DNA of 64,000 nucleotides from the NCBI RefSeq assembly GCF_024519435.1, contig NZ_JALJRZ010000004.1, forward strand, positions 1 through 64,000. Direction: 5' to 3'. Below, piece by piece: positions 33,553 to 49,279 of this stretch; within the stretch, counting starts at the first letter, position 1, and the number at the start of each line of letters is the position of its first letter. This DNA comes from Terrabacter sp. Ter38. Lineage in GTDB: Bacteria; Actinomycetota; Actinomycetes; Actinomycetales; Dermatophilaceae. The notes beneath the pieces are model-generated. The model saw nothing but the letters and a program-made list of their open reading frames with translations, made no database searches and was not told the DNA's origin. A program made the translations under genes and the position numbers.

Positions 33553-35070
33553 TCAGGCGAGAGCGGCAACGATGGGACGGCCGGGGAAGGCGCCGACGTC
33601 CATGGCGCCGTCGCGCACCACGAAGGTCCCGTCGACCAGCAGGTGTCGCACTCCCACGGAGGGCCGCGTCGGGTCGACGTAGGTGGCGCGGTCGCTGATG
33701 GTGGCTGGGTCGATGACCACCAGGTCGGCATCCGCGCCGACGTCGAGCCAGCCCTTCGTCCGTGCGGCGGGCGCGAAACCGGCGACCACCTGCGCGGGCA
33801 GGTAGGAGCAGCGTCGGAAGGCCTCCGCCCACGACCACGCCTCGGTCTCGACGACCATCCGCCGAAGCGAGCGGGAGAACGTCCCGGCGGTGCGCGGGTG
33901 CGTCTGCCCGCCCTCGGGGAGCGGCCACTCGCGGCTGTCGGTCGAACCGTCCGGCCACTCCACGTGCATGGCATCGCTGGCGACGATCGAGTCCGGGAAG
34001 GCGAGCGCTCGCTGGAGCAGCGCGGCGTCCTCGGGCCTGTCCTCGTCGAGGAAGGAGACGACGCAGACGGCGCCGGGATCGGTCGCACGCAGCTCGGCCA
34101 GCCGGGCGACCGAGGCGATCTGCTCGCCGGTCGCGACGAGCCTGAGCGACGCCGGCTGCAGACCCCAGGCGTCGAGCCGTTCCGGGGCGAGGAAGTAGGC
34201 GCCGATCGCGGTGCTGCCGGCGCCGTACGGGTAGGCCTCGACGGTCACCCGGGATCCGTTGCTCCGCGCCGTGTCGAGCAGGCCCAGCACCCGGTCGACG
34301 TGACGGCGGGAGGTGCTGTTGACGTGGCAGTGGTGCATCGACGCACCGGTCTCGGCCGCAGCCCGGACGATCTCGAACGAACCATCGATCGGCGTGGTCG
34401 GGTCGGCCTCGATGATCTCGCGCACATGGGTGAAGGTCGCGGTGCCGGTCCGCGCCGCGAGGCGGGCGACGTCCAGGAACTCGTCGGGGTCGGTCCGCGG
34501 GGCGTAGCCCATCAGGACCCCGATGCCGAGCGCTCCGGCCTCGAGCTCGGACTCGAGCAGCCGCAGCCAGGCGGCGCGTTCGGACGGCGAGGACGATCGC
34601 TGCCACGCCGGGTCGCCCAGCCTCTTGAGCGACGCGTGGAGATCGGCCGCCGGCGTCGCTCCCAGGTGCACCGCGGCGCGGGCGTCGCCCCAGGAGGCCG
34701 AGAAGCCGTAGTGCAGAAGGCGTCCGTCGGCGGCCGCACGTGCGTAGGCCCTCCTGACCGGCATGAGCCCCGCCTCGAGGTCGAGGGTCGTCGTGACCCC
34801 GTCGAGCGCCTGCAGCCGCTGGCCCGCGATGGAGTGGACGTGGCTGTGCAGGTCCACGAAGCCTGGACCGACCACGAGTCCGGTCACGTCGACGACGGTG
34901 GCCCCCTCCGTCGCGAGGGACGGAGCGACGGCAACCACCGAGCGTCCGTCCACCGCCACGTCGGCTACTCGTTCGGTCCCGGAGCGCGGGTCGATCACGC
35001 GCCCGCCGCGGAGAATCAGCACCTCCTCAGCAAACACCGTCCCCGTCGCAGCCTCACTGGCGAATCGCAC
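33553..35070 (-). CDS. D-aminoacylase-like amidohydrolase (N-acyl-D-amino-acid deacylase family)
   Basis: Up to 505 aa. Metal-dependent amidohydrolase: N-terminal beta domain, metal motif FVDLHSHVH (~residue 75), GIGVLMGYAP, FTHVREI, and the closing GWLDVGADADLVVIDP/GxxVV block of D-aminoacylases, which remove the acyl group from N-acyl-D-amino acids. The annotated GTG start is uncertain; GTG 35037 is an alternative. It is divergent from the peptide-transport/racemase operon across 68 bp with an inverted repeat, so it probably belongs to the same D-amino-acid pathway. Confidence 0.87.
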   Translation of the reverse strand: MRFASEAATGTVFAEEVLILRGGRVIDPRSGTERVADVAVDGRSVVAVAPSLATEGATVVDVTGLVVGPGFVDLHSHVHSIAGQRLQALDGVTTTLDLEAGLMPVRRAYARAAADGRLLHYGFSASWGDARAAVHLGATPAADLHASLKRLGDPAWQRSSSPSERAAWLRLLESELEAGALGIGVLMGYAPRTDPDEFLDVARLAARTGTATFTHVREIIEADPTTPIDGSFEIVRAAAETGASMHHCHVNSTSRRHVDRVLGLLDTARSNGSRVTVEAYPYGAGSTAIGAYFLAPERLDAWGLQPASLRLVATGEQIASVARLAELRATDPGAVCVVSFLDEDRPEDAALLQRALAFPDSIVASDAMHVEWPDGSTDSREWPLPEGGQTHPRTAGTFSRSLRRMVVETEAWSWAEAFRRCSYLPAQVVAGFAPAARTKGWLDVGADADLVVIDPATISDRATYVDPTRPSVGVRHLLVDGTFVVRDGAMDVGAFPGRPIVAALA

Positions 35071-35080
35071 AAACTCGCGT

Positions 35081-35126
35081 AGCGGTTGCTGTCCGATCGA
35101 ACGAACACTCGCGTCGGCGAACCGCT
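35081..35126. promoter_or_regulatory. inverted repeat in the divergent promoter of the D-amino-acid locus
   Basis: AGCGGTT (35081-35087) and AACCGCT (35120-35126), exact 7-bp arms with a 32-bp spacer, lie in the 68 bp between the D-aminoacylase and serine hydrolase starts. A PucR-type regulator ending the operon is the candidate binder. Wide spacing makes this tentative. Confidence 0.35.
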
Positions 35127-35138
35127 TACGGTGCCGTT

Positions 35139-36560
35139 ATGTCAACACAGGACAGCCCACTGGGCACCGACGCGCCGCAGGCTGCCGCCACCTGGCTCGC
35201 TGAGAACTTCGCGGACCTCGTCACGGAGCACGGGGTCCCCGGAGCGACGATCGCCGTGCTGGCGGGAGGGGAGGTCGCGACCGCCGCCGGCGGCGTCACG
35301 AGCCTCGCCACCCAGGTGCCGGTCGACTCCGAGACCGTCTTCCAGATCGGCTCCATCACGAAGATCTGGACCACGACACTCGTCCTGCAGCTCGTCGACG
35401 ACGGGCTGCTCGACCTCGACCAGCCGCTGCTCGACTACCTGCCCGAGCTGGTCATCGGTGACATGGAGGCCGCCAAGGCCCTCACCACGCGCCACCTGCT
35501 GACGCACACCGCCGGCTTCGAGGGCGACATCTTCACCGACACCGGCCGCGGCGAGGACGCCATCGAGAAGTACGTCGCCACCCTCACCGACCTCCCCCAG
35601 CTCTTTGCGCCGGGGGAGACCTTCTCCTACAACAACACCGGGTTCGTCGTGCTCGGCCGCCTCATCGAGGTCCTCCGGGCGAAGCCGTACGACGAGGTCC
35701 TCCTCGAGCGCATCGCGGCGCCCCTCGGTCTCGACCGCGTCAGCCCGAGCCCGTACGAGGCGATCCGGCACCGTGCCGCCACCGGTCACGTCGCCGGTGA
35801 GGACGGGGAGCTGGCGCCCGCAACCTCCTGGGCGCTGGCGCGCTCGAACGCTCCCGCGGGGTCGATGCTGGCGATGACCCCCACCGACCTGCTCGGCTTC
35901 GTGCGGATGCACCTCGACCGCGGCGTCGCGCCCGACGGCACCCGTGTGCTCAGCGCCGAGTCGGTGCAGGCGATGCAGACCCGCGAGATCGACCTCCCCC
36001 GCCTCGCTGGCATGGGCGACGCCTGGGGCCTCGGCTGGGAGCTGTTCGACGCGCCCCAGGGTGCCGTCGTCGCCCACGACGGCGGCACCATCGGCCAGGC
36101 GGCCTTCCTGCGAGTCGTCCCCGAGGCGGGCGTCGCCATCGCGATGCTCACCAACGGCGGCGACGTGTTCGGTCTCTTCAACGACGTGGTCGCCACGCTC
36201 CTCACCCGGCTCACCGGCGTGGAGCTGCCGGCCCGCCCGACCCCACCGGCAGACCCGCAGCAGGTGGACGTCAGCCGCTACCTGGGCCACTACGCCGACA
36301 CCATCTACGACATCACCGTCAGCCAGGACCAGGACGGCCGGGTCTGGCTCGACCGGCAGCCCAAGGACATCCACGCCGAGATCGGTGAGAAGCCGATCCG
36401 CTTCGAGCTCGTGCACCTCGTCGACGACAGCCTCATCACCGTCGAGGACTACCGCGGCATCCACGTCGTCTTCGCCTTCATCGGCTCGGTGACGAGCGCG
36501 TCGGGCGCCGACCAGGCGAAGTACGTCCACTACGGCCGTGTGGTCGCCCGCGTCGAGTGA
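35139..36560 (+). CDS. S12-family serine hydrolase (class C beta-lactamase/D-aminopeptidase fold)
   Basis: 473 aa. Active-site SxxK (GSITK, Ser72-Lys75), YxN (SYNNTGF, ~residue 165) and HDGG (~312), then a C-terminal beta domain. No signal peptide, so it is cytoplasmic, which argues against a beta-lactamase resistance role and for a D-aminopeptidase, D-esterase or peptidase acting on imported substrate. First gene of an operon with a peptide ABC transporter. A paralogue with the same architecture follows the transporter (41932). Confidence 0.9.
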   Translation: MSTQDSPLGTDAPQAAATWLAENFADLVTEHGVPGATIAVLAGGEVATAAGGVTSLATQVPVDSETVFQIGSITKIWTTTLVLQLVDDGLLDLDQPLLDYLPELVIGDMEAAKALTTRHLLTHTAGFEGDIFTDTGRGEDAIEKYVATLTDLPQLFAPGETFSYNNTGFVVLGRLIEVLRAKPYDEVLLERIAAPLGLDRVSPSPYEAIRHRAATGHVAGEDGELAPATSWALARSNAPAGSMLAMTPTDLLGFVRMHLDRGVAPDGTRVLSAESVQAMQTREIDLPRLAGMGDAWGLGWELFDAPQGAVVAHDGGTIGQAAFLRVVPEAGVAIAMLTNGGDVFGLFNDVVATLLTRLTGVELPARPTPPADPQQVDVSRYLGHYADTIYDITVSQDQDGRVWLDRQPKDIHAEIGEKPIRFELVHLVDDSLITVEDYRGIHVVFAFIGSVTSASGADQAKYVHYGRVVARVE

Positions 36561-36639
36561 CGCGGCACCGGTCGAACCAGCTGAACCCATCCGCATGTCA
36601 CAGCCCCACCCGAAGCAGCCCGAAGAAAGAGGAACGCCC

Positions 36640-38229
36640 ATGAGGCCGGTCCGCTCGAGCGCCATCCTGGCGCTCTCCCTCTCCGTGGCCACTGTCGGCC
36701 TCACCGCCTGCGGTGGGTCCGACGGCGGCTCGAGCGCCAGCACGTATGCCGCCGGCAAGACCTTCACGATGGCGCTCTCCGCAGACCCCGGGGCGCTCGA
36801 CCCCCAGGGCAGCGCGTCGAGCCCGCTCTTCCAGGTCAGCAAGTTCGCCTACGACAGCCTCGTCTCCGTGGATGCCAAGGGCCAGGTCACCTCCGGCCTC
36901 GCGTCGAAGTGGTCGGTCAACGGCAAGACGGTGACGTTCGACATCGCACCCAAGGTCACGTGCGCAGATGGTGCGGCGTTCACGGCGCAGACCGCGGCCG
37001 ACAACATCAGCTACGTCGAGGACCCGAAGAACAAGAGCCCGTTCCTCGGGGTGTTCGTGCCGGCAGGTGCGACGGCCAAGGCCAGTGGCAGCACCCTCAC
37101 GGTCACCCTCGCCTCCGCGTCGCCCTTCGTGCTGGACTCGTTCGCCAACCTGCCCATGGTCTGTGACTCCGGCATGAAGGACCGCGCCTCGCTCAAGGCC
37201 GGCACGGCCGGCACCGGTCCCTACACGCTCAAGGAGGCCGTGCCCGGGGACCACTACACCTACGCGATCCGCACCGGCTACACGTGGGGCCCGGCCGGCG
37301 CGACGACCGCCACGACGGGCATGCCTGCCACGATCCAGGTCAAGGTCGTGCCCAACGAGACGACGGCCGCCAACCAGCTCCTCTCCGGCGCGCTCAACGC
37401 GGCAGCGATCCACGGGCCGGACGCCGCCCGTCTCGAGGCGGCCAAGCTCGACCACGACGACGCCCAAGCCATCGTCGGCGAGCAGTGGTACAACCACGAC
37501 AAGGCCCACGCCACCTCTGACCCGGCCGTTCGGCAGGCCCTGACCCAGGCGCTGGACCTGGCCCAGCTGCAGAAGGTCATCACCTCCGACCGTGGCGGCC
37601 CGGCGACCCAGCTCGCCGTCGTCGCGCCGGCCGCCTGCACCGGCTCGTCGGTCGAGGGCAACGTCCTCGGCTCGGACGTGGCCGCCGCCGGGGCGGCGCT
37701 CGACGCCGCCGGCTGGGTCAAGGGCGCCGACGGCATGCGCGCCAAGGCCGGGAAGCCGCTGTCGCTCTCCTTCCTCTACGACGCCTCGCTCGGCTCCGGC
37801 GGCAGCGCCGCGTCCGAGCTCGCCGTGGACGCGTGGAAGAAGCTCGGCGTCGCCGTCAAGGCCAAGCAGCTCGACGAGACCGGCATGGTCAACGCGATGT
37901 TCGGCACCGGCGACTGGGACCTCGCCTGGGAGCCGCTGAACCTCAACACGCCTGAGCAGGGTGTGCCCTTCTTCTCCGGGCCCGCCGTGACGGATGGCGG
38001 CAACAACATGTCGGGCATCACCAACGCGGACTACTCCGCGAGCGTCCAGAAGGCGATGGGCAAGGTCGGCGCCGACAGCTGTCCTGACTGGCTGGCTGCC
38101 GAGGCCGCGCTGTTCAAGGCCAACGACGTGGTCCTGTTCGCCAACAGCCTGTTGCCGTTCTTCAGCAAGGGCGCCGAGATGGACGTCCTCGGCAGCATCG
38201 TGCCCACCAGCATCCGGATGCTCGGCTGA
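36640..38229 (+). CDS. peptide ABC transporter substrate-binding lipoprotein (family 5)
   Basis: 529 aa. Lipoprotein signal with lipobox LTAC (Cys24) then a Gly/Ser linker. SBP_bac_5 fold: FTMALSADPGALDPQGS, ASKWSVNGKTVTFDI, TGPYTLKEAVPG. It binds peptides or similar ligands outside the membrane and feeds the permeases that follow. Start ATG 36640 has AAAGAGGA upstream. Neighbours suggest peptides containing D-residues or N-acylated amino acids as ligand. Confidence 0.92.
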   Translation: MRPVRSSAILALSLSVATVGLTACGGSDGGSSASTYAAGKTFTMALSADPGALDPQGSASSPLFQVSKFAYDSLVSVDAKGQVTSGLASKWSVNGKTVTFDIAPKVTCADGAAFTAQTAADNISYVEDPKNKSPFLGVFVPAGATAKASGSTLTVTLASASPFVLDSFANLPMVCDSGMKDRASLKAGTAGTGPYTLKEAVPGDHYTYAIRTGYTWGPAGATTATTGMPATIQVKVVPNETTAANQLLSGALNAAAIHGPDAARLEAAKLDHDDAQAIVGEQWYNHDKAHATSDPAVRQALTQALDLAQLQKVITSDRGGPATQLAVVAPAACTGSSVEGNVLGSDVAAAGAALDAAGWVKGADGMRAKAGKPLSLSFLYDASLGSGGSAASELAVDAWKKLGVAVKAKQLDETGMVNAMFGTGDWDLAWEPLNLNTPEQGVPFFSGPAVTDGGNNMSGITNADYSASVQKAMGKVGADSCPDWLAAEAALFKANDVVLFANSLLPFFSKGAEMDVLGSIVPTSIRMLG

Positions 38230-38247
38230 TCGGGAAGTGACCGCGAG

Positions 38248-39258
38248 ATGACAACACTGACACCGGCAGCCGCTCCGCCCCGGTCCGTCCCGAAACCACA
38301 GGGCCGGCTGGGTGGGAGGTGGACACGCTTCGCGCTCCGTCGTACGGGGCGGCTGCTGGTGTCGCTGTGGGTGCTCGTCACCGTGTCGTTCCTGATGATC
38401 CACCTGGTCCCGGGCGACCCGGTCCGAGCGGCCCTCGGGATGACGGCCCCGACCGAGCTGGTCGAGGCCAAGCGACAGGCGCTCGGCCTCAACGACCCAC
38501 TGCTGACGCAGTACGTGCACTACCTCGGCAACCTGCTCCACGGCGACCTGGGCGAGTCGATCACGACCCAGCTACCCGTCTCGGAGACGATCAGCCAGCG
38601 GCTTCCCGCCACGGCCTCCCTGGCTGTCCTGGCGTTCCTCGTCGCCATCGCGGTCGCCGTCCCGCTGGGCGTGACCGTCGCGGTCGCGACCAGGCGCGGC
38701 CGGCGCCGCCGCACGGAACTGGCGTTCGCCGGTGGCAGCGTCGTGCTCGGCGCGATCCCCGACTTCCTCGTCGGCGTCGCCCTCGTCGCCGTGTTCGCGG
38801 TCGGCCTCGGGTGGTTCCCCGTCGCAGGCCGAACCGACGCCTCGTCGTACGTCCTGCCGGTGCTGGCCCTGGCCATCGGTCCGGCGGCCGTTCTGGCGCG
38901 CATCGTCCGCGTCGAGATGCTCGCGGTGCTGGAGACCGACTACGTCCGCACGGCTCGGGCGAAGAGACTGCCCGCCCGACGCATCTACCTCAGGCACGCG
39001 CTTCCGAACGCGGTCACGGCGACGCTCACCCTCGGCGGCATGTTGTTGGCCTCGATGGTCGCCGGCACGGTCCTCGTCGAGAACGTCTTCTCCTGGCCCG
39101 GGCTGGGCAGCACGATCGTCCAGTCGATCGTCACCAAGGACTACCCGGTCGTGCAGGGCACGGTCCTCGTCTACGGGCTCGGTGTGCTCGTCATCAACAC
39201 CCTGGTCGACGTCGCGCTCGCCGTGCTCGACCCCCGTTCCACGATCGGTGAGCTCTAG
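38248..39258 (+). CDS. ABC transporter permease (DppB-like)
   Basis: 336 aa. About six membrane segments and the BPD inner-membrane domain with the EAA-like loop YVRTARAKRLPARRIYLRHAL that contacts the ATPase. Charged ~40-residue N-terminus. Forms the channel with the permease half of the next protein. Confidence 0.92.
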   Translation: MTTLTPAAAPPRSVPKPQGRLGGRWTRFALRRTGRLLVSLWVLVTVSFLMIHLVPGDPVRAALGMTAPTELVEAKRQALGLNDPLLTQYVHYLGNLLHGDLGESITTQLPVSETISQRLPATASLAVLAFLVAIAVAVPLGVTVAVATRRGRRRRTELAFAGGSVVLGAIPDFLVGVALVAVFAVGLGWFPVAGRTDASSYVLPVLALAIGPAAVLARIVRVEMLAVLETDYVRTARAKRLPARRIYLRHALPNAVTATLTLGGMLLASMVAGTVLVENVFSWPGLGSTIVQSIVTKDYPVVQGTVLVYGLGVLVINTLVDVALAVLDPRSTIGEL

Positions 39259-39260
39259 TC

Positions 39261-41171
39261 ATGTCCCAGCGCTGGATTCGCATCGTCAAGACGCCCGTCG
39301 GCCTCGTCGGGCTGAGCCTGCTCTCGCTCATCGTGCTCCTGGCCGTCTTCGCCCCGATCCTCTGGGGCGACAAGGCCAGTGTCGTCGACACCGAGAACCT
39401 CCTCGCCGGTCCGTCGGCGCAGCACTGGTTCGGCACCGACAACCTGGGCCGCGACCTGTTCTTCCGGGTCCTGGTCGCCACCCGACTCTCGCTGACGCTG
39501 ACGCTCGTGGCCACCGCGCTCGGAACGGTGATCGGCCTCGTGCTCGGCACCGCCCCGGAGCTGCTCGGCGGCCGGCTCGGCCGGCTCGTCACGGCCCTCG
39601 TCAACGTCTTCGTGGCTTTCCCCGGGCTGCTCCTCGTCCTCGTCTTCGCCGTCATCTTCGGCGTCGGGGCGAGGGGCGCGGTCCTGGCGATCGGCCTCGC
39701 GGTCGCCCCGGGGCTCGCCCGCCTCTGCCAGACGCTCGTCGCCGGAGTCACCGGGCTCGAGTACGTCGCCGCGGCGCGGATCACGGGCGTCAACCGCTTC
39801 CGGATCATGGCCCGGCACGTGCTGCCCAACGTGGCCGAGCCACTCATCGTCAACGTGACCATCACCGCCGGCGCCATCCTGCTGAGCTTCGCCGGGCTGT
39901 CGTTCCTCGGGCTCGGCGTCCAGGCGCCGGAGTACGACTGGGGCCGGCTGATGCAGGACGGCCTGAGCGGCATCTTCGTGCACCCGCTCGCGGCACTCGG
40001 CCCCGGCATCATGGTGGTCCTCGCCGGGCTGGCCTTCAACCTCACCGGTGAGGCGATCGCCGGGGTCTTCGGGATCTCCACGCCGACGGGCACCGGCACG
40101 CTGCGGGTGCCGACCGACGAGACGCCGGTGACCGACATCCCCCACGACCACGCCGCCGACGGCGACCTGGTGCTCGACGTCCGCGACCTCTCGGTCACCT
40201 TCCCGGGGGCGAACGGTCCGGTCCGGCCGGTCCGCGGCGTCTCGTTCGGCATCGCCGCAGGCGAGGCCGTGGGCGTCGTGGGCGAGTCGGGGTCCGGCAA
40301 GTCACTGACGGCGCTGTCGATCGCCGGCCTCGTCGAGGAGCCGGCGAGCATCGACGCCCGGCACCTCACCTTCTGCGGGACCGACCTGCTCGAGGAGCCG
40401 GCGTCCGGTCAGACCCGCGACACACTGCTGGGCACCTCGCTCGCCGTCGTGTTCCAGGACCCGATGACCTCGTTCAACCCCACGATGCGGATCGGCGCCC
40501 AGCTGGCCGAGGTCGGCCGTCACCACCAGGGACTCGATCGCAAGAAGGCGTCGGCCCGTGCCGTCGACCGTCTCCGCGCCGTCCGCGTCCGCGACCCCGA
40601 GCGCCGGGCCCGCCAGTACCCCTTCGAGTTCTCGGGTGGCATGCGTCAGCGCGCCATGATCGGGATGGGGCTGATGGGCAGCCCCCGGCTCATCATCGCC
40701 GACGAGCCGACGACCGCACTCGACGTCACCGTGCAGAGCCAGGTGCTCGCGCTGCTCCAGGACGTACGCCGCGAGGAGGGGGCCGCTCTCCTGCTCATCA
40801 GCCACGACGTCTCGGTCGTCGCCGACGTCTGCGACCGCGTGCTCGTCATGTATGCCGGCCGGATCGTCGAGGACCTGCCGACCGCCGACCTGCGCACCAG
40901 GGCACGACACCCGTACACCCGCGCGCTCGTCGCCGCCGTGCCGGCGATGACCACCGACATCGACACCCCCCTCGCCACGATCCCCGGCCACCCGGTCGAG
41001 CCGGCGCAGGTCCCGGTGGGTTGCGCGTACGCCGCGCGTTGCCCGCTCGCCACCGTCCGCTGCCGCGAGCAGGACCCGACCCTGACGGCGGGCCCGGGCG
41101 GGAGCCGCGTCGCGTGCTGGCACGCCGACGAGCCGGCCGACGTCGTGACGGCTGAGGAGGCGCTCGCATGA
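39261..41171 (+). CDS. ABC transporter permease-ATPase fusion (DppC-DppD)
   Basis: 636 aa. Residues ~1-275 are a DppC-type permease (HWFGTDNLGRDLF, AARITGVNRFRIMARHVLPNV EAA loop, GLSFLGLGVQAP). After a short linker, residues ~300-620 are a DppD-type ATPase: Walker A GESGSGKS, Q-loop VFQDPM, signature FSGGMRQRAM, Walker B LIIADEPTTALD, and the C-terminal oligopeptide-transporter Cys region (CAYAARCPLATVRC). Two normally separate subunits are one chain here. Three bases after the preceding stop; overlaps the next ATPase (ATGA). Confidence 0.92.
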   Translation: MSQRWIRIVKTPVGLVGLSLLSLIVLLAVFAPILWGDKASVVDTENLLAGPSAQHWFGTDNLGRDLFFRVLVATRLSLTLTLVATALGTVIGLVLGTAPELLGGRLGRLVTALVNVFVAFPGLLLVLVFAVIFGVGARGAVLAIGLAVAPGLARLCQTLVAGVTGLEYVAAARITGVNRFRIMARHVLPNVAEPLIVNVTITAGAILLSFAGLSFLGLGVQAPEYDWGRLMQDGLSGIFVHPLAALGPGIMVVLAGLAFNLTGEAIAGVFGISTPTGTGTLRVPTDETPVTDIPHDHAADGDLVLDVRDLSVTFPGANGPVRPVRGVSFGIAAGEAVGVVGESGSGKSLTALSIAGLVEEPASIDARHLTFCGTDLLEEPASGQTRDTLLGTSLAVVFQDPMTSFNPTMRIGAQLAEVGRHHQGLDRKKASARAVDRLRAVRVRDPERRARQYPFEFSGGMRQRAMIGMGLMGSPRLIIADEPTTALDVTVQSQVLALLQDVRREEGAALLLISHDVSVVADVCDRVLVMYAGRIVEDLPTADLRTRARHPYTRALVAAVPAMTTDIDTPLATIPGHPVEPAQVPVGCAYAARCPLATVRCREQDPTLTAGPGGSRVACWHADEPADVVTAEEALA

Positions 41172-41935
41172 GCACGCTCGAGTTCGACCACGTGACAGTC
41201 CGCTACGACGCGAGCACCGTCCTCGACGAGGTGAGCCTGACCGTTCCGGACGGCGGGATCGTCGGCCTGGTCGGGGAGTCGGGGTCGGGCAAGTCCACGC
41301 TGGCCAAGGCGGCCGTCGGGCTCGCGCCGGTCCACGGTGGACGGATCCTGCTCGACGGTGAACCGATCCGTCTTCGGGGTCGGCACCGGCCCGTCCAGAT
41401 GGTCTTCCAGGACCCGTTCTCCTCCCTCGACCCGAGGATGACCATCGGGGAGAGCATCGCCGAGGCGCTCTACCGGCCCGAGTCGGGACGCCTCTCACGT
41501 GCCGGCCGTCGTGCCGAGATCGCCCGGCTCCTCGAGCTGGTCCACCTCGACCCCGGCCGGTCCGGGCACCTTCCCGGTGAGCTGTCGGGTGGCCAGCGGC
41601 AGCGCGTCGCGCTCGCGAGGGCCCTCGCCGGCCGGCCCCGGCTCGTCATCGCCGACGAGATCACCTCGGCGCTGGACGTCTCCGTGCAGGGCGCGGTGCT
41701 CAACCTCGTCCGGGAGATGCAGCGCGAGCTGGGCCTCTCGATGCTCTTCATCTCGCACAACCTCGCGGTCGTCCGTTACGTCGCCAGCCAGGTGGCCGTC
41801 ATGGAGGGCGGCCGGATCGTCGAGCACGGCCCCACGGCCGAGGTGCTCGGACGCCCGCAACACGACTACACCCGCCAGCTCCTGGCCGCCATCCCCGGCG
41901 GCCACGACATCCCCACGAAGGAGACCACCCCATGA
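41168..41935 (+). CDS. ABC transporter ATP-binding protein (DppF-like)
   Basis: 255 aa. Walker A GESGSGKS, Q-loop VFQDPFSSLDPRM, signature LSGGQRQRVALARAL, Walker B RLVIADEITSALD, H-loop ISHN. Second ATPase of the peptide importer. Both ends overlap neighbours by four bases (ATGA), showing tight translational coupling. Confidence 0.92.
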   Translation: MSTLEFDHVTVRYDASTVLDEVSLTVPDGGIVGLVGESGSGKSTLAKAAVGLAPVHGGRILLDGEPIRLRGRHRPVQMVFQDPFSSLDPRMTIGESIAEALYRPESGRLSRAGRRAEIARLLELVHLDPGRSGHLPGELSGGQRQRVALARALAGRPRLVIADEITSALDVSVQGAVLNLVREMQRELGLSMLFISHNLAVVRYVASQVAVMEGGRIVEHGPTAEVLGRPQHDYTRQLLAAIPGGHDIPTKETTP

Positions 41936-43335
41936 CCACGAACCGACCCGACCTCGACACCGCCCACTGGGAAGCCCGGTTCGCCGAGCTCGTGAAGAAG
42001 CACGGCGTCCCCGGCGCCCAGCTCGGCATCCTGCGCCTCGGTGCCGACGGCGCCGACGACGAGGTCTTCACGACCGCGACCGGTGTCCTGCACGCCGGCA
42101 CCGGGCAGCCCGCCACGCCCGACTCGGTCTTCCAGATCGGCTCGGTCTCCAAGGTGTGGACGGCGACCGTCGTCATGCAGCTCGTGGACGAGGGACGCTT
42201 CGCGCTCGACACCCCGGTGGTCGAGATCCTCCCCGAGCTCGCGCTGCGCGACACGGAGGTCACCAAGAAGGTCACGGTCTGGCACCTGCTGACCCACACC
42301 AGCGGTGTCGACGGTGACGTCTTCACCGACACCGGCCGCGGTGACGACGCGCTCGAGAAGTACGTCGCCCAGCTCGGTGATGCAGCGCAGAACCACCCCA
42401 TCGGTGCCACGTGGTCCTACTGCAACTCGGGCTTCTCCGTGCTCGGCCGGATCATCGAGGTCGTCACCGGGAAGACGTGGGACGAGGCGATGAGGGAGCG
42501 GCTCTTCGCCCCGCTCGGCCTGACGCACACGACGACCCTGCCCGAGGAGGCCATGGTCTTCGCCCACGCGATGGGCCACCTCAAGGGCGGCGACGAGCCG
42601 GAGACCGCACCGGTCTGGGGCCTGCCCCGCTCGATCGCACCGGCCGGCCTCATCACCTCCTCTCCTGCCGACGTGCTGGCCTTCGCGCGGATGCACCTGA
42701 CCGGTGGCCTGGCGGCGGACGGCACGCGGGTCCTCTCGGAGGAGAGCGTCGCTGCCATGGCCGACTACCAGACCGAGTGCCCCGAGAAGATCCTGCTCGG
42801 CGACTCGTGGGGCCTGGGCTGGTTCCGCTGCGACTGGAACGGTCACCGAGCCATCGGCCACGACGGCAACACGATCGGCCAGGCCGCGTTCCTCAGGCTG
42901 CTGCCGGAGGCGGGCATCGCCGTCTCGCTCAACACCAACCTCGGCAGCGCGATCACGCTCTACCAGGACCTCTACGAGGAGATCTTCTCGGCGCTCGCCG
43001 ACGTGCGACTCCCCGCGCGGTTCGAGTTGCCCGCCGAGCCGGTCGAGGTCGACGCGACGCCGTACCTCGGCACGTACGCCCGCGAGTCCGTCGTCGAGGA
43101 GGTCTACCTCGAGGACGGCAAGACCTGGATGCGGACCACCGTCTCGGGGCCGGTCGCCGAGGCGTCCGGCGCCGCGGAGCCCGAGGTGCACGAGCTGATC
43201 CCGGTCGGCGACGCCCTCTTCGCGGTCAAGCCGGACAAGAGCGAGGCGTACTACCCGGTCCGCTTCTACGCTCTGCCCACCGGCGAGGAGTACATCCACT
43301 TCGGCGCGCGCGCCACTCCGAAGAGGCGTGCATGA
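41932..43335 (+). CDS. S12-family serine hydrolase, paralogue of the operon's first gene
   Basis: 467 aa. SxxK in GSVSK (Ser71-Lys74), SYCNSGF as the YxN motif, and GHDGN replacing the usual HxGG-type third motif. The DIFTDTGRGEDA-like stretch (DVFTDTGRGDDALEKYVA) is shared with the 35139 gene, so they are paralogues within one operon. Cytoplasmic. Two similar hydrolases may differ in peptide length or side-chain choice. Confidence 0.9.
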   Translation: MTTNRPDLDTAHWEARFAELVKKHGVPGAQLGILRLGADGADDEVFTTATGVLHAGTGQPATPDSVFQIGSVSKVWTATVVMQLVDEGRFALDTPVVEILPELALRDTEVTKKVTVWHLLTHTSGVDGDVFTDTGRGDDALEKYVAQLGDAAQNHPIGATWSYCNSGFSVLGRIIEVVTGKTWDEAMRERLFAPLGLTHTTTLPEEAMVFAHAMGHLKGGDEPETAPVWGLPRSIAPAGLITSSPADVLAFARMHLTGGLAADGTRVLSEESVAAMADYQTECPEKILLGDSWGLGWFRCDWNGHRAIGHDGNTIGQAAFLRLLPEAGIAVSLNTNLGSAITLYQDLYEEIFSALADVRLPARFELPAEPVEVDATPYLGTYARESVVEEVYLEDGKTWMRTTVSGPVAEASGAAEPEVHELIPVGDALFAVKPDKSEAYYPVRFYALPTGEEYIHFGARATPKRRA

Positions 43336-44498
43336 CGACGCTCGGCGACACTCGTCCGGCTGGGCCGGCTCTCGACGAGCTGCTCGCGGACCTGCGCGAG
43401 CTGGTCGAGTGCGAGTCGCCGTCCGACGACCTCGGCGCCGTCGAACGCTCGGCGGACCTGGTCGCTCGCATCGGCTCGGAACGCCTCGGCGTCGCGCCGG
43501 AGCGCCTCGTCGTCGACGGCATACACCACCTGCGCTGGCGCTTCGGTGCGCCGACGGCGCCACACCGTGTCCTGGTGCTGGCGCACCACGACACGGTGTG
43601 GCCGATCGGCACGCTGGCGCGGTCACCGTTCACGATCGCTGACGGGGTGCTGCGCGGGCCGGGGTGCTTCGACATGATCGCCGGTCTGGTGATGGCCCTG
43701 CACGCCATCGCGGACCTGGGCGAGCGCGACGGCGTGACGCTGTTGGTGACCGGTGACGAGGAGGTCGGCTCCGCGAGCTCCCGTGCGCTGATCGAGGACG
43801 AGGCTCGCCGTGCCGAGGCCGTCCTCGTGCTCGAGGCCTCGGCCGACGGGGGTGCGCTCAAGACCGCCCGCAAGGGCACGTCGCTCTACGAGATCTGCAT
43901 CGCCGGCCGGGCCGCTCATGCCGGGCTGGAGCCGCACAAGGGAGTCAACGCGACCCTCGAGCTGGCCCACCTGGTGCACGAGGTCGCGGCGCTGGCCGAC
44001 CCCGGTGCCGGCACCACGGTGACGCCCACGGCGGCGACGTCCGGAACCACCGTCAACACCGTGCCGGCCTCCGCCCGGTTCTCGGTCGACGTACGGGCGT
44101 GGACGGCGTCGGAGCAGGAGCGCGTCGACGCTGCGTTGCGTGGGCTCCGGCCGGTGCTGCCCGGTGCCGAGGTGCAGGTCGACGGAGGCATCAACCGGCC
44201 CCCCCTGGAGGCGGCGGCGTCGCTGCCGCTCTTCGAGCGGGCGCAGACGATCGCCGCACGAATCGGGTTGCCCGAGCTGACCCGGGCGGCCGTCGGTGGC
44301 GCCTCGGACGGCAACTTCACGGCCGGGCTCGGGGTGCCGACCCTCGACGGGCTCGGAGCAGTCGGCGGAGGAGCGCACGCCGAGGACGAGCACGTGCTCG
44401 TCGACCGACTGGGTGACCGGACCCTGCTGCTGCGGGTACTCATCGAGGAGCTGCTCGCACCGTCGCCACCGAACCAGGAGCCACATCATGACCACTGA
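43332..44498 (+). CDS. M20-family metallopeptidase/deacylase (carboxypeptidase G2-like)
   Basis: 388 aa. Metal ligands His85 and Asp87 (LAHHDTVW), Asp114 (GPGCFDMIAG), catalytic Glu143-Glu144 (TGDEEVGS), LEAS and the C-terminal AHAEDEHV His. A dimerisation domain (~170-290) is inserted as usual. M20 enzymes release the acyl or amino-acid group from N-acyl L-amino acids. Beside a GNAT and a racemase this matches the L-desuccinylase slot of the N-succinylamino acid racemase pathway. ATG overlaps the upstream stop. Confidence 0.9.
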   Translation: MTTLGDTRPAGPALDELLADLRELVECESPSDDLGAVERSADLVARIGSERLGVAPERLVVDGIHHLRWRFGAPTAPHRVLVLAHHDTVWPIGTLARSPFTIADGVLRGPGCFDMIAGLVMALHAIADLGERDGVTLLVTGDEEVGSASSRALIEDEARRAEAVLVLEASADGGALKTARKGTSLYEICIAGRAAHAGLEPHKGVNATLELAHLVHEVAALADPGAGTTVTPTAATSGTTVNTVPASARFSVDVRAWTASEQERVDAALRGLRPVLPGAEVQVDGGINRPPLEAAASLPLFERAQTIAARIGLPELTRAAVGGASDGNFTAGLGVPTLDGLGAVGGGAHAEDEHVLVDRLGDRTLLLRVLIEELLAPSPPNQEPHHDH

Positions 44499-45285
44499 GC
44501 CGTGGGCGTCCTATGACGCCGCCGCCGCCGCGTCCCGCGTCGTCGTGCGCGAGCTCCTCACCCTCGAGGAGCTCCAGGATGCGGCCGCCGTCCTCGGCCG
44601 GATCTGGGGCACTCCCGACAACCCGCCGATGAGCGCCGAGCTGCTGCGCGCCATGGGCAAGGCGGAGAGCTACGTCGCCGGGGCCTTCGACGCCAAGCGC
44701 CCCGAGGCGGGCATGGTCGGCGTCTGCGTCGGCTTCCACTCGACGCCCGCCGCCCGCGCGATGCACAGCCACATCGCCGGGGTCACGGATGCGGTCGCCG
44801 GCCGCCACGCCGGGTTCGCGCTCAAGCTGCACCAGCGGGCCTGGTGCCTGGATCGCGGCATCGACCTGACCGAGTGGACCTATGACCCGCTCGTCTCCCG
44901 CAACGCCTACTTCAACCTGGCGAAGCTCGGCGCCCGTGTCGCCGAGTACCTCCCCGACTTCTACGGCTCCATGAGCGATGCGATCAACCGGGGGAACGAC
45001 AGCGACCGGATCCTCGTGCACTGGTCGCTGACCTCGCCCGAGGTGGCGCAGGCGTGTGCGGGGTCGCCCGTGCGGGCGACCGTGCCCCCCGGTGCCGCTG
45101 CCTCGTGGGTTCAAGTCCCGCGGGACATCGGGGCCCTTCGGCTCACCGACCCCGAGCAGGCGAGGGCCTGGCGCGCCAAGGTGCGCGACCAGCTGGTGGG
45201 CGCCCTGGACGTCGGCGGACACGTCGCCGGCTTCGACAAGGAACGGGGCTACCTCGTCCTGCCACACGAAGGAGATCTGCCGTGA
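44488..45285 (+). CDS. GNAT-superfamily acyltransferase, candidate D-amino acid N-succinyltransferase
   Basis: 265 aa. Begins inside the M20 gene (11-bp overlap). GNAT-like features: ELLTLEELQDAAAVLGRIWG at the start, the core GMVGVCVGFHSTPAARAMHSHIAGV and DRGIDLTEWTYDPLVSRNAYFNLAKLGARVAEYLPDFYG (the ACFN region), typical of the predicted GNAT group often found beside N-succinylamino acid racemases. In that pathway a GNAT succinylates D-amino acids using succinyl-CoA. Function here is inferred from context. Confidence 0.78.
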   Translation: MTTEPWASYDAAAAASRVVVRELLTLEELQDAAAVLGRIWGTPDNPPMSAELLRAMGKAESYVAGAFDAKRPEAGMVGVCVGFHSTPAARAMHSHIAGVTDAVAGRHAGFALKLHQRAWCLDRGIDLTEWTYDPLVSRNAYFNLAKLGARVAEYLPDFYGSMSDAINRGNDSDRILVHWSLTSPEVAQACAGSPVRATVPPGAAASWVQVPRDIGALRLTDPEQARAWRAKVRDQLVGALDVGGHVAGFDKERGYLVLPHEGDLP

Positions 45286-46406
45286 GCGTGAAGCTCGAAG
45301 GCGTCGAGCTGCGCCGTATCGCGATGCCGCTGGTGTCGCCGTTCCGGACGTCGTTCGGCACCCAGACCGCGCGCGACATCCTGCTGCTCCGCGCCGTCAC
45401 CTCCGACGGTGAGGGCTGGGGCGAGTGCGTCGCGATGTCGGACCCCCTCTACTCGTCGGAGTACGTCGACGCGATAGCCGACGTACTGCGTCGCTTCTTC
45501 CTCCCGACGCTGGCGGCCTCGACGGAGGAGCTGCAGCGGCACGGCGCGCACGCGGTCAACGCGGTGCTCCACCAGTTCAAGGGCCACCGGATGGCCAAGG
45601 CGGCACTGGAGATGGCCGTGCTCGACGCCGAGCTGCGGGCCGACGGGCGGTCCTGGGCGCGCGAGCTCGGCGCCGTCCACGAACGCGTGCCCTCAGGGGT
45701 GTCGGTCGGCATCTTCGACAGCATCCCGCAGCTGCTCGACGTCGTCGGCAGCTACCTCGACGCCGGCTACGTCCGGATCAAGCTCAAGATCGAGCCGGGC
45801 TGGGACGTCGAACCGGTACGCGCCGTACGCGAGCGCTTCGGGGACGACGTGCCCCTGCAGGTCGACGCCAACACGGCATACACCTTGCGCGACGCGCGTC
45901 ACCTGGCCAAGCTCGACGACTTCGACCTGCTCCTCATCGAGCAGCCGCTCGAGGAGGAGGACATCCTCGGCCACGCCGAGCTCGCTCGGCTCATCAAGAC
46001 GCCGGTCTGCCTCGACGAGTCGATCGTCTCCGCGCAGTCCGCGGCGGCCGCCATCTCGCTCGGTGCGTGCTCGATCATCAACATCAAGCCCGGACGCGTC
46101 GGGGGGTATCTCGAGGCGGTGCGCATCCACGACGTGGCAGCCGCCCACGGGCTGGCCGTGTGGTGCGGCGGCATGGTCGAGACCGGGCTCGGCCGGGCTG
46201 CCAACGCGGCCCTCGCCGCACTGCCCGGCTTCACCCTCCCCGGTGACATCTCGGCCTCGGACCGCTTCTACCGGACCGACATCACCGCGCCGCTGACCAT
46301 CTCCGAGGGGTACATGGACGTTCCCTCCGGGCCGGGTCTCGGGGTCAGCCCGATCCCCGAGCTCCTCGACGCCGTCACCACGTCCAGCGAGTGGATCACT
46401 CTCTGA
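45282..46406 (+). CDS. N-succinylamino acid racemase / o-succinylbenzoate synthase-like enolase-superfamily enzyme
   Basis: 374 aa, muconate-lactonising subgroup. Acid/base lysines in the KxK motif (Lys167, Lys169: RIKLKIEPG) and Lys269 (IINIKPGRVGG); metal ligands Asp195, Glu220 (LIEQPL) and Asp245 (CLDES). OSB synthases and N-succinylamino acid racemases share all these residues. With no other menaquinone gene nearby and with GNAT and M20 genes coupled to it, racemisation of N-succinyl amino acids is the better call. GTG 45282 with AAGGAG (45269-45274) overlaps the GNAT stop. Confidence 0.88.
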   Translation: MSVKLEGVELRRIAMPLVSPFRTSFGTQTARDILLLRAVTSDGEGWGECVAMSDPLYSSEYVDAIADVLRRFFLPTLAASTEELQRHGAHAVNAVLHQFKGHRMAKAALEMAVLDAELRADGRSWARELGAVHERVPSGVSVGIFDSIPQLLDVVGSYLDAGYVRIKLKIEPGWDVEPVRAVRERFGDDVPLQVDANTAYTLRDARHLAKLDDFDLLLIEQPLEEEDILGHAELARLIKTPVCLDESIVSAQSAAAAISLGACSIINIKPGRVGGYLEAVRIHDVAAAHGLAVWCGGMVETGLGRAANAALAALPGFTLPGDISASDRFYRTDITAPLTISEGYMDVPSGPGLGVSPIPELLDAVTTSSEWITL

Positions 46407-46471
46407 CGGGCGTCGGGCCGACGGAGGGCGGCCTCGCCTTTCGGCTCACCGGCGAGCCCTATCCTGAGTCG

Positions 46472-48148
46472 GTGAGCCAACGCCCCCGTGCGAGCCTGGG
46501 ACGGGTCCTCGAGGACCTGGGGGACTCCTTCCTGGAGCTGGTCGCGGGCGACCCCGAGCACGAGGGAGAGATCGGCGGCATCGTCATCCACGACCCGGAC
46601 GACGAGCCGGTCCAGCCACCGGGCGCGCTCGTGCTCGGCGTCGGCGTACCGTCCGTCGCTCTCCCGGACCTGGTCCGCGACGCCGGACGCCAGGGCGCCA
46701 TCGGGTTGATCGTCCGTGCGCCCGTGGTGATGAGCCCCACGCTCGACGCGGCGGTCCGAGAAGCCGGGCTCGCCCTGCTCGGCCTGCGCCGTGGCGCGAC
46801 GTGGGGTCAGCTCACCGCGCTGCTCCGCTCCCTCCTCGCCCAGGACGACATCGGGCCGGCCGGGGAAGAGTCGATCGGCGGGCTGCCGTCGGGCGACCTC
46901 TTCGCCGTGGCCAACGCTGTCGGTGCACTCCTCGACGCGCCGGTCACGATCGAGGACCGCAGCTCGCGCGTGCTGGCCTTCTCCGGTCGGCAGGACGAGG
47001 CGGACTCGTCCCGGGTCGAGACGATCATCGGACGCCAGGTGCCGGAGAAGTATGCGAAGACGCTCACCGAGCTCGGCGTCTTCAGAGAGCTCTACCGCGA
47101 GCACCGCCCCGTCGTGGTGAACCCGGCCGACCTCGGGGCCGACGCGGTCAACAAGCAGCGGGTCGCGATCGCGGTGCGTGCGGGCGACGAGGTGCTGGGC
47201 TCCATCTGGGCAGCGATGGACGGCGAGGTCACGCCCGAGCGGAGCGCCGTGCTGCAGGACTCCGCGAAGCTGGTTGCCCTGCACATGCTGCGTGTCCGCG
47301 CCGGTGCCGACGTGCAACGCCGGCTGCGCACCGACCTCGTGAGCACCGCTCTGGAGGGTGGTGTCGGCGCGCGCGACGCGCTGAGCCGGCTCGGCCTGGC
47401 CGGCGCGCCGGTGGTCGTACTCGCTGCGACCTTGCGTGCCGAGCACCCGGACGGCCGCGCGGTCGGCGCCTCCCAGCCGGCCGGTGCACGTGGCGGTGCG
47501 ACCGGGGGTGTGGCCGGCGGTGGCTCCGGTGACCTCGAGCGGGTTGCCGATGCGCTCAGCCTGCACCTGTCGGCATCCTCGCCCAGCTCGGCCGTCGCTG
47601 TGGTCGGCGGTATCGCATACGGCCTGCTGGGCGTCGTGGCCGGCAGCGAGCCCGAGGAACGAGCCGCCCGCCTGGCAGAGGAGTTCTGCGAGCGGGTCGG
47701 CAGTCGCCTGCCGGTCGTGGTCGGCATCGGCGGCGTCGGCGAAGACGTCCGCGGCGTGACTGACTCGCGCGAGACGGCGACCCGGGTGCTGCGGGTTCTC
47801 CGCGAGGGGCACGGCGCCCAGCGGGTCGCTCGCCTCGCCGACGTCCACGCCCAGTCCCTGCTGCTCGAGCTGCGCGACCTTGCCGCGGCGCGCGGTGAGC
47901 GGCCGGTGGGTCCCGTCGCGCGCCTGGTGGCGTACGACGAGGACAACGACTCGGACCTGACCGGGACCCTTGGGGCGTGGCTGGACGCGCTCGGCGACGT
48001 CCGCGCCGCCGCCGCAGCACTGTTCGTCCACCCCAACACGCTGCGCTACCGGCTGCGGCGGCTCGAGGAGGTCAGCGGACTCGACATCGACGATCCGGAG
48101 CAGCGGTTCGCCGCGATGGTCCAGCTGCGGATGCTGGCGCCTCGCTGA
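46472..48148 (+). CDS. PucR-family transcriptional regulator
   Basis: 558 aa from GTG 46472 (an in-frame GTG at 46391 lies within the preceding gene). N-terminal PucR purine-catabolism-like sensor domain (~residues 15-130, PPGALVLGVGVPSVALPDLVRDAGRQGAIGLIVR), CdaR GGDEF-like middle, and C-terminal HTH (FVHPNTLRYRLRRLEEVSGLDIDDP). Last gene of the D-amino-acid operon, 65 bp after the racemase, and its likely activator. A Gly/Ala-rich insertion (~340-355) interrupts the middle domain. Confidence 0.88.
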   Translation: MSQRPRASLGRVLEDLGDSFLELVAGDPEHEGEIGGIVIHDPDDEPVQPPGALVLGVGVPSVALPDLVRDAGRQGAIGLIVRAPVVMSPTLDAAVREAGLALLGLRRGATWGQLTALLRSLLAQDDIGPAGEESIGGLPSGDLFAVANAVGALLDAPVTIEDRSSRVLAFSGRQDEADSSRVETIIGRQVPEKYAKTLTELGVFRELYREHRPVVVNPADLGADAVNKQRVAIAVRAGDEVLGSIWAAMDGEVTPERSAVLQDSAKLVALHMLRVRAGADVQRRLRTDLVSTALEGGVGARDALSRLGLAGAPVVVLAATLRAEHPDGRAVGASQPAGARGGATGGVAGGGSGDLERVADALSLHLSASSPSSAVAVVGGIAYGLLGVVAGSEPEERAARLAEEFCERVGSRLPVVVGIGGVGEDVRGVTDSRETATRVLRVLREGHGAQRVARLADVHAQSLLLELRDLAAARGERPVGPVARLVAYDEDNDSDLTGTLGAWLDALGDVRAAAAALFVHPNTLRYRLRRLEEVSGLDIDDPEQRFAAMVQLRMLAPR

Positions 48149-48223: not shown

Positions 48224-49279
48224 CTAGGCACCGGCCAAGGCGAGCGCGGGGTCGACCCGGAGCACTCGCGCGATACCGGCAAGGCTCGCGAGGATCCCGA
48301 GGCCGACCGCCACCAGCGCGAGCACGAGGCAGGCGGACAGGCCGAGGCTGATGGTCAGCGGGAAGGCGGGCACGAGTGCCCAGGCGAGGACGATCGCACC
48401 GGCCGCGGCAGCAAGGGACACGGCGAGGCCCTCGATGAGCGGGGTCGCGCACAGCCGCCACGAGGGGGCACCGATGGCCTTGAGAACGGCCACGTCGCGC
48501 ACCCGGTCCAGGGCCGAGAGGTAGCAGACGAAAGCCACGATGCTGCCGGCCACGAGCCAGAGCAGGAGGGAGAGGAGGCCGAGGGTCCGAGTCGCGACCT
48601 GCAGTGGGCGGCGCAGGTCGTCGCGCACCTCGTGCGGCGTCATGACAGCCAGATCCGGCGGGAGGGCCGCGGGGTTGCCCTGCATGACGATCGCGCTGGC
48701 CATGTCCTCGCCGTCGTAGGCGATGGACTGGCCTTGAGACAGTGTCATGACCACGGTCGGTGTGCCCCCGTTGTAGGTCAGCCCCGCAACGGTTCCGACC
48801 ACCGTGAGCGGGACGCCGGCGAGCGTCAGGGTCGCTCCGACGGGGACGCCCAGGCTGTCGTCCACCGCGACCTCGCCGTCGGCGCGAGGAGGGCGACCAG
48901 CGGTCGGCCGAGGCTCGACGACACCGTCCGGGCGGTAGGCGATGACGTTGACGTCGCTGAGACCGTGCGCGTCGGCCCCCTCGATGACGTGTCGGAAGAT
49001 CGCGACCGGGGTCGCTGTGACTGCTCGGGACGGGTCCGCGAGGTGTTGCGCCACCTCTGCCTTCATCGGGGAGTTCGTGGTGAAGGGACCTGCCAGACCC
49101 CGAGTCACGACCCAGCTGTCACCGCCGAAGAAGGCGATGGTCCGGTCGGTCTCGTTGAGGAAGCTGTCGTGGACGGACTGGAGCAGGAGCGTCACGGCGA
49201 AGACGAGCATGGCCGCGCAGACGCCCACGACGATGCGCCGGGCTCGCCACTGCAGATCGCGAAAGGTGATGGTCAGCAT
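48224..49279 (-). CDS. FtsX/MacB-type ABC transporter permease
   Basis: 351 aa. One N-terminal membrane segment (RIVVGVCAAMLVFAVTLLLQ), a large extracytoplasmic domain (~50-225, GGDSWVVTRGLAGPF..., VGATLTLAGVPLTVVGTVAGL) and three C-terminal segments containing DRVRDVAVLKAIGAPSWRL, the FtsX/MacB hallmark. Such permeases perform lipid, lipoprotein or peptide export or mechanotransmission rather than import. Starts within the ATPase gene (7-bp overlap), forming a two-gene export unit. Confidence 0.88.
   Translation of the reverse strand: MLTITFRDLQWRARRIVVGVCAAMLVFAVTLLLQSVHDSFLNETDRTIAFFGGDSWVVTRGLAGPFTTNSPMKAEVAQHLADPSRAVTATPVAIFRHVIEGADAHGLSDVNVIAYRPDGVVEPRPTAGRPPRADGEVAVDDSLGVPVGATLTLAGVPLTVVGTVAGLTYNGGTPTVVMTLSQGQSIAYDGEDMASAIVMQGNPAALPPDLAVMTPHEVRDDLRRPLQVATRTLGLLSLLLWLVAGSIVAFVCYLSALDRVRDVAVLKAIGAPSWRLCATPLIEGLAVSLAAAAGAIVLAWALVPAFPLTISLGLSACLVLALVAVGLGILASLAGIARVLRVDPALALAGA

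Follow-up and report, generated by a model that had tools for sequence, protein, structure and literature searches.

What is the cellular task of a racemase of the N-succinylamino acid racemase (NSAR) type when its gene stands in one block with an importer, several hydrolases and a regulator? The question is raised by eleven genes (A to K, positions 33553-48148) of Terrabacter sp. Ter38 (NZ_JALJRZ010000004.1; genome of 4.83 Mb), lying in the stretch of 64,000 nt (71.4% GC) that was analysed as a whole, called the window hereafter and used for all coordinates below. Judging from gene content and sequence comparison, the locus is probably a PucR-controlled, horizontally acquired catabolic unit for peptides containing D-residues. 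Concerning its parts, conversion of D- to L-amino acids by the locus appears likely, and peptides are the somewhat favoured imported substrate; peptide import is the less supported of the two because the binding protein, C, resembles no defined peptide binder.

In the proposed mechanism, C, D, E and F would take up small peptides, probably ones of cell-wall or non-ribosomal origin that contain D-residues. The cytosolic S12 hydrolases B and G and the amidohydrolase A would cut the peptides to D-amino acids. The GNAT protein I would acylate these, most likely with succinyl-CoA, J would racemise the N-acyl product, and the M20 peptidase H would deacylate the L-form only, pulling the route towards L-amino acids. 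The operon would be controlled by the PucR protein K via tandem palindromes situated 32 bp apart in the A-B gap.

Organisation of the locus

Gene A runs leftward, B to K rightward. Domain and coordinate checks agree with the original prediction as to the eleven genes and their places, i.e. a divergent amidohydrolase, two S12 hydrolases, an importer, overlapping M20, GNAT and racemase genes and a closing PucR gene:

33553..35070, minus strand: A, amidohydrolase of the D-aminoacylase / N-acyl-D-glutamate deacylase group, PRK09061 subfamily (NF006560, 637 bits, cut-off 340)
35139..36560, plus strand: B, predicted cytosolic S12 serine hydrolase (PF00144, 218 bits; SITK at 72, YNN at 164)
36640..38229, plus strand: C, lipoprotein substrate-binding protein of family 5 (PF00496, 138 bits; best PDB match 6lu2, 103 bits; lipobox-like LTAC)
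38248..39258, plus strand: D, OppB-type permease (PF00528, PF19300)
39261..41171, plus strand: E, OppC-type permease fused to an OppD-type ATPase in one 636-aa frame (PF00528 at 88-269, PF00005 at 325-485, PF08352 at 536-601)
41168..41935, plus strand: F, OppF-type ATPase (PF00005, 105.9 bits)
41932..43335, plus strand: G, predicted cytosolic S12 serine hydrolase (PF00144, 224.7 bits)
43332..44498, plus strand: H, M20 peptidase, proposed N-succinyl-L-amino acid desuccinylase (PF01546, PF07687; nearest PDB relative carboxypeptidase G2)
44488..45285, plus strand: I, GNAT of 265 aa, proposed D-amino acid N-succinyltransferase (AlphaFold pLDDT 94.8, Foldseek GNAT matches)
45282..46406, plus strand: J, N-succinylamino acid racemase of the NSAR/OSBS group, enolase superfamily (593.6 bits to PDB 1sja)
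46391..48148, plus strand: K, PucR-family regulator (C-terminal HTH_30, PF13556, 78.1 bits; PF17853)

From E to J the genes overlap successively, by 4 nt (E/F, F/G, G/H and I/J) or 11 nt (H/I), followed by a J/K overlap of 16 nt if the GTG at 46391 is the start of K. Upstream, gaps of 79, 18 and 2 nt separate B/C, C/D and D/E, respectively.

The racemase and the D-to-L core

J is 74% identical to the crystallised Amycolatopsis NSAR/OSBS (OSBS, o-succinylbenzoate synthase; 1sja) and scores 593.6 bits against it, vs. 124.7 bits against the Ala-Glu epimerase 1jpm. The NSAR/OSBS signature of two lysines and three acidic metal ligands is present (K169, K269, D195, E220 and D245). We take these residues to be the counterparts of K163, K263, D189, E214 and D239 of the Amycolatopsis enzyme, i.e. 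its catalytic lysines and metal ligands, and R272 presumably occupies the position of R266, the second-shell arginine tied to NSAR activity. Among 99 sequences, K167/K169, D195, E220, D245, K269 and R272 are each kept at 95% or more, and the string KPGR(V/I/L)GG is exact in 161 of 198 racemases, the rest having mostly KAGR or leaving the pattern unmatched.

In the window, the GNAT and M20 genes overlap or adjoin the racemase gene, as an NSAR D-to-L pathway would lead one to expect. No Pfam or NCBIfam match was obtained for I; as modelled by AlphaFold (58-sequence alignment; pLDDT 94.8, pTM 0.91), the protein has a GNAT fold, the Foldseek comparison with the PDB listing 50 GNATs at prob 1.00 (TMt 0.62-0.83, identity 11-20%). 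Residues H85, D87, D114, E143, E144, E168 and H349 of H are kept at 95% or more (69 sequences). As stated in passages of PMC7431475, NSARs are promiscuous for the N-acyl group, so that J does not reveal the acyl donor and succinyl is an assumption. The original prediction is supported in part, by the identity and active site of the racemase, the GNAT fold, the adjacency of M20, a gene order kept far outside this strain, the repeated recruitment of peptidase-type hydrolases and the separate menC gene described below, which counts against a pure OSBS role.

That J is instead the o-succinylbenzoate synthase of menaquinone synthesis appears extremely improbable. This role would fit the menC model TIGR01928, which accepts J (305 bits, cut-off 200.65), the labels 'menC' and 'o-succinylbenzoate synthase' carried by relatives of J in Prokaryotic Genome Annotation Pipeline (PGAP) and plasmid records, and passages of PMC4215206, where the relevant function of the Amycolatopsis enzyme is determined to be OSBS. 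However, a canonical actinobacterial menC (463 bits, cut-off 288) exists elsewhere in this genome (contig C33), where its neighbours are a gene of the geranylgeranyl-reductase family and menB and menG, each of which passes its cut-off, and no men gene is found among the eleven genes of the locus. A separate menC over the cut-off was also detected in 19 of 22 relatives' genomes, including all ten of Amycolatopsis (in the genome of L066 the match runs over a TAA); the Microbispora, Streptomyces (L063) and Winogradskya genomes tested gave none over the cut-off. Since a dedicated menC is present here and in the ten Amycolatopsis genomes, OSBS need not be the role of J; as a cellular role it was rejected, J being neither the sole OSBS gene nor a member of a men operon.

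Near-identical copies of the crystallised Amycolatopsis racemase (L086, L081 and L108) themselves sit in loci of this kind. The A. rubida copy (L086) is 98.9% identical to 1sja, and two further copies are 97.5% identical. In L086 the order is A, M20, GNAT, NSAR, PucR, class-A-like hydrolase, S12, class-A-like hydrolase, binding protein, permease and permease-ATPase; A. rubida thus differs from the window in having A inside the operon plus a class-A-like hydrolase. This genome context argues for an NSAR rather than an OSBS role in Amycolatopsis, without proving the former.

Importer and hydrolases

The importer has an Opp/Dpp-type composition, in which a binding protein of family 5 is combined with a pair each of permease and ATPase domains. 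Its earlier description as four components in three genes is accurate if C is set aside; counting C, there are five components in four genes. In a phylum-wide search that scored three candidates per genome, uninterrupted permease-ATPase frames were met at 37-40% identity, so that fusions of this type probably exist in other systems too.

B and G carry SxxK at residues 72 and 71 and YxN at 164 and 163, respectively, and neither inspection by eye nor a crude hydropathy scan revealed a signal peptide in them. In the B/G cluster GS..K is found in 61 of 65 proteins and YxN (narrow pattern) in 32 of 65; in proteins where an S12 domain is fused to an S9 domain, the figures are 31/32 and 26/32. PDB relatives of G include 7spn, 6ksu, 8fek and 4y7p, and the S12 relatives include alkaline D-peptidase and ClbP.

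The S9 domain is present in 57 of 90 importer loci. In 50 of these (two of which repeat named loci), S9 and S12 form a single uninterrupted reading frame of about 1100 aa. For the S9 domain, the nearest solved structures are the S9 family peptidase 8wt1 and the acyl-peptide hydrolase 5yzm. Passages of a survey of S12 proteins (PMC2605481) report five multi-domain proteins among 254, of which four are described, without S9; the S9-S12 fusion was not found discussed in those passages of this one survey. As to the distribution of B and S9 over the 90 importer loci (three repeats among them), 25 have B only, 51 S9 only, 6 both and 8 neither. An example of the in-frame fusion lies at 4667-8071 of L044. 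In the window, G lacks the S9 part; Nocardioides terrae (L240, L033; outside the 90, on a short contig), the J of which is 90% identical (L033), has both B and S9. The hydrolase complement varies further, with an M19 dipeptidase in 11 of 98 loci, a class-A-like hydrolase in seven loci (SxxK and SDN in 11/11 copies), and M24, or A within the operon, in other related loci.

Concerning A, the best PDB match by phmmer is the D-aminoacylase 1m7j, followed by the N-acyl-D-glutamate deacylase 3gip, and the protein passes as PRK09061 subfamily only. Because most relatives align only from residues 13-18, its start is probably nearer 35037 or 35022 than 35070; the Root181 relative aligns from residue 1. 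A stands beside B, divergently, in the window, in Terrabacter Root181 and in four Nocardioides, and is joined to H-I-J-K in Amycolatopsis.

A predicted operator

Alignment of the A-B gap from the window, Terrabacter Root181 and the four Nocardioides revealed a 16-bp palindrome, TTGTCCGATCGGACAA, that is present twice at a spacing of 32 bp. In the window the two copies are located as follows:

35057..35072, no strand: operator candidate 1, degenerate (5 mismatches to TTGTCCGATCGGACAA), 32 bp from the second copy
35089..35104, no strand: operator candidate 2, 3 mismatches to TTGTCCGATCGGACAA, between the divergent A and B

Matches with at most two mismatches number 20 in 3.82 Mb of loci vs. 0 in one Markov control; at three mismatches the counts are 25 vs. 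13, and at four 89 vs. 104. With 20 upstream stretches added, the matches at up to two mismatches rose to 28, of which 27 are no more than 141 bp away from where A, B or C begins (as extrapolated from tblastn). Four of the 28 come from loci used to derive the consensus, one (L137) is a repeat of L051, and the eight that were gained all belong to one genus (g327). Eight of the 20 added stretches hold such a match, and one more holds a match at three mismatches. The 28th match (L203, in the tandem pair at 8484-8531) has a divergent PucR gene (32% identity to K) on one side and a GNAT-NSAR pair on the other, and weaker tandem copies (4-6 mismatches) with the same 32-bp spacing occupy the PucR/GNAT-NSAR gap in L201 (7749-7796) and L204 (8317-8364). 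L208 and L210, of the same genus, showed no PucR match in the stretch. The palindrome tracks the PucR gene across two locus types, which is the best evidence that K binds it, and the tandem palindromes are the predicted operator of K. Genome-wide, a loosened pattern at up to two mismatches gave 116 forward and 118 reverse matches (reversed pattern, 14 and 16), a number too large for other regulon targets to be named. When the two ends of the operon were scanned, neither a sigma-70 promoter nor a terminator was detected.

Conservation across actinomycetes

A GTDB genome scan yielded 567 confirmed relatives, of which the best 80 were examined; being the top of the 567, this set leans to high identity. 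The closest locus among the 80 is that of Terrabacter sp. Root181 (L034). Recurrence was counted over the window and 98 loci, chosen because they hold J: I is present in 96 of the 99, K in 80, F in 75, D in 71, H in 69, C in 63 and E in 62, while the commonest families other than the block genes and the swapped hydrolases reach 10. A gene order confined to this strain, which the original prediction had named as evidence against itself, was not what was observed, since the order recurs in many actinomycete genera: B-C-D-E-F-G-H-I-J-K is found in Terrabacter, Nocardioides, Dactylosporangium, Catellatospora and Acrocarpospora, and variant orders in Microbacterium, Leucobacter, Herbidospora, Nonomuraea, Amycolatopsis, Actinomadura and others. 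As for the term 'complete', it is apt for this lineage and does not extend to several relatives, which are without M20 or importer.

A class-wide search of 394 genomes found J-like matches in 117 genomes at 139 places, the window's own included. From the 138 others, 100 were sampled, comprising those with at least 64% identity, two excepted, and a selection made by hand from those below (three J being identical to that of a named locus). By identity of J (at least 70, 67-70, 60-67, 50-60 and below 50%), a GNAT gene lies within 1.5 kb of J in 16/18, 25/34, 14/20, 22/25 and 3/3 places, an importer is found in 12/18, 12/34, 1/20, 0/25 and 0/3, and PucR in 14/18, 16/34, 1/20, 0/25 and 0/3 (a 43% identity threshold that misses distant PucR); M20 accompanies J in 13/18 and 24/34 places of the two top bands. 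These counts make GNAT-NSAR the steadiest pair and concentrate the import and hydrolysis module in one racemase subgroup; exceptions run in both directions, L132 having an importer at a J identity of 61% and L136 lacking all partners at 76%. A FastTree tree was built from 198 racemases; across the 182 rows that carry a label (16 short ones being excluded), presence of the importer switches 19 times, the deep forks being weakly supported. At the level of the phylum, 71 of 396 genomes hold a racemase match, with 70% identity or more in the own genome and one other only; the close racemase subgroup is therefore not common across the phylum.

Several other places differ in gene content. In L121-L123, more distant GNAT-NSAR pairs of the same family have a universal stress protein and an APC amino acid permease nearby in place of an importer. 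At five places of genus g310 (L148-L150, L163 and L165) the racemase has no GNAT or M20 match within the stretch examined, and L029 (G090) holds a partial racemase match, 49% identical, with one in-frame stop, possibly a decayed copy.

Patchy occurrence and plasmids

The locus is present in two of nine genomes of the genus (one of the nine being 74% complete). In the second member, homologues of the two flanking genes tested are on another contig, not next to the locus, and the next closest racemases are those of Nocardioides (85-90%). From this patchiness, the displaced flanks and the Nocardioides affinity, we infer horizontal acquisition of the locus. In Streptomyces sp. NBC_00257, a single plasmid carries nearly all parts of the locus (by annotation and length), and transposase genes both surround and interrupt them; an Arthrobacter plasmid carries a binding protein, two S12-type genes, an annotated dipeptidase, M20, GNAT, racemase and regulator. 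A broader proposal is advanced tentatively, its chances falling a little short of an even balance: that of a widespread, horizontally spreading, PucR-controlled actinomycete system for D-residue peptides, with a GNAT-NSAR-M20 core and interchangeable hydrolases, including a bifunctional S9-S12 protein, in which the textbook N-acylamino acid racemase would have its native role, one distinct from menaquinone synthesis.

Weighing of the alternatives

A number of observations count against the catabolic unit for D-residue peptides as proposed. C passes no listed peptide equivalog cut-off, nor do D and E (for E, 25 of 193 families listed), and the nearest solved relative of C is a generic 'substrate binding protein' (6lu2). 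The PF00144 family of B and G includes esterases and beta-lactamases. B and S9 seem strongly to exclude each other by raw counts, but the tree offers 6 independent pairs, too few for significance, and 11 of the 20 added upstream stretches, not all of which need hold an operon start, have no palindrome at up to three mismatches. Within 20 kb at L136, where J is 76% identical, neither GNAT nor M20 nor an importer is seen; several importer loci (Herbidospora, Nonomuraea and Microbispora) are devoid of M20; and both plasmids are typed non-mobilizable. The metal site of D-aminoacylase 1m7j presumably has a bridging cysteine ligand; its position aligns with A89 in A, although the histidines and aspartate are kept (H64, H66, H204, H235, H238 and D355; 494-aa numbering). 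A D-deacylase is also awkward in this setting, in that one accepting N-succinyl-D-amino acids would undo the GNAT step; for this reason A is more likely to act earlier, on acyl- or peptidyl-D-residues.

Among the alternatives, an importer for something other than peptides would leave the D-to-L core untouched: an amide- or ester-linked metabolite (an N-acyl-D-amino acid, a beta-lactam-like compound or other) would be opened by the S12, S9 or amidohydrolase proteins. Such a cargo would suit the generic affinities of C, and the S12, class-A-like and amidohydrolase families are broad, including amidases and esterases; yet the repeated S9, M19 and M24 peptidase families in these loci fit peptides better, and the non-peptide cargo appears unlikely. 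Defence, in which the hydrolases would detoxify D-residue peptide antibiotics and the racemase route salvage the products, is brought to mind by the alkaline D-peptidase and ClbP among the S12 relatives and by a patchy locus that is also found on plasmids. However, the hydrolases look cytosolic and come with an importer, which would bring the drug in, and the regulator and racemase route point to catabolism, so that defence is rather improbable. Still less probable is the recycling of the cell's own wall peptides (D-Ala, D-Glu), since occurrence in two of nine genus genomes and on plasmids does not suggest a housekeeping function.

Relation to known systems

The GNAT, M20 and NSAR genes are reportedly adjacent in Geobacillus kaustophilus, for which Sakai and colleagues are said to have proposed an irreversible D-to-L conversion in 2006. 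The window shares this adjacency and goes beyond it in having two S12 hydrolases and an amidohydrolase, a PucR gene with tandem palindromes, and an importer in which a permease and an ATPase are fused. The likeness to the Amycolatopsis NSAR/OSBS lies in the identity of J and in the A. rubida copy standing in the same kind of locus. In ykf-type use of murein peptides, peptide transport, peptidases and an enolase-superfamily Ala-Glu epimerase likewise come together; there a dipeptide is epimerised, whereas here a free D-amino acid would presumably be acylated first, and J matches NSAR. Deinococcus radiodurans has on plasmid MP1 a 46% identical racemase with a GNAT gene nearby; unlike in the window, the features annotated within 9 kb include neither M20 nor a peptidase (gene table incomplete). 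On MP1 (L267, 8977-11815), a menC-labelled NSAR, two pieces annotated as substrate-binding protein of an ATP-binding cassette (ABC) system and the GNAT form one run, the binding pieces being placed between racemase and GNAT.

No description of the combined system was found in the open-licence literature. If correct, the reading as a catabolic unit would mean that a single block encodes the whole path by which a D-residue peptide becomes usable L-amino acids; it would provide a physiological setting for a racemase used in biocatalysis (passages of PMC7431475) and correct the 'menC' label on relatives of J in public records. Experimental work would gain an inducible system, together with its predicted operator and the S9-S12 fusion. 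Loci of this kind, with close counterparts among many actinobacteria of soil, are apparently where a well-known racemase, the cellular job of which has been disputed, natively belongs.

As for its surroundings, the flanks in the window (48224-49956, 50103-51383 and 31196-32779) hold a pair resembling, by eye, an ABC ATPase and an FtsX-like permease, a cytochrome P450 and a PPDK-like protein.

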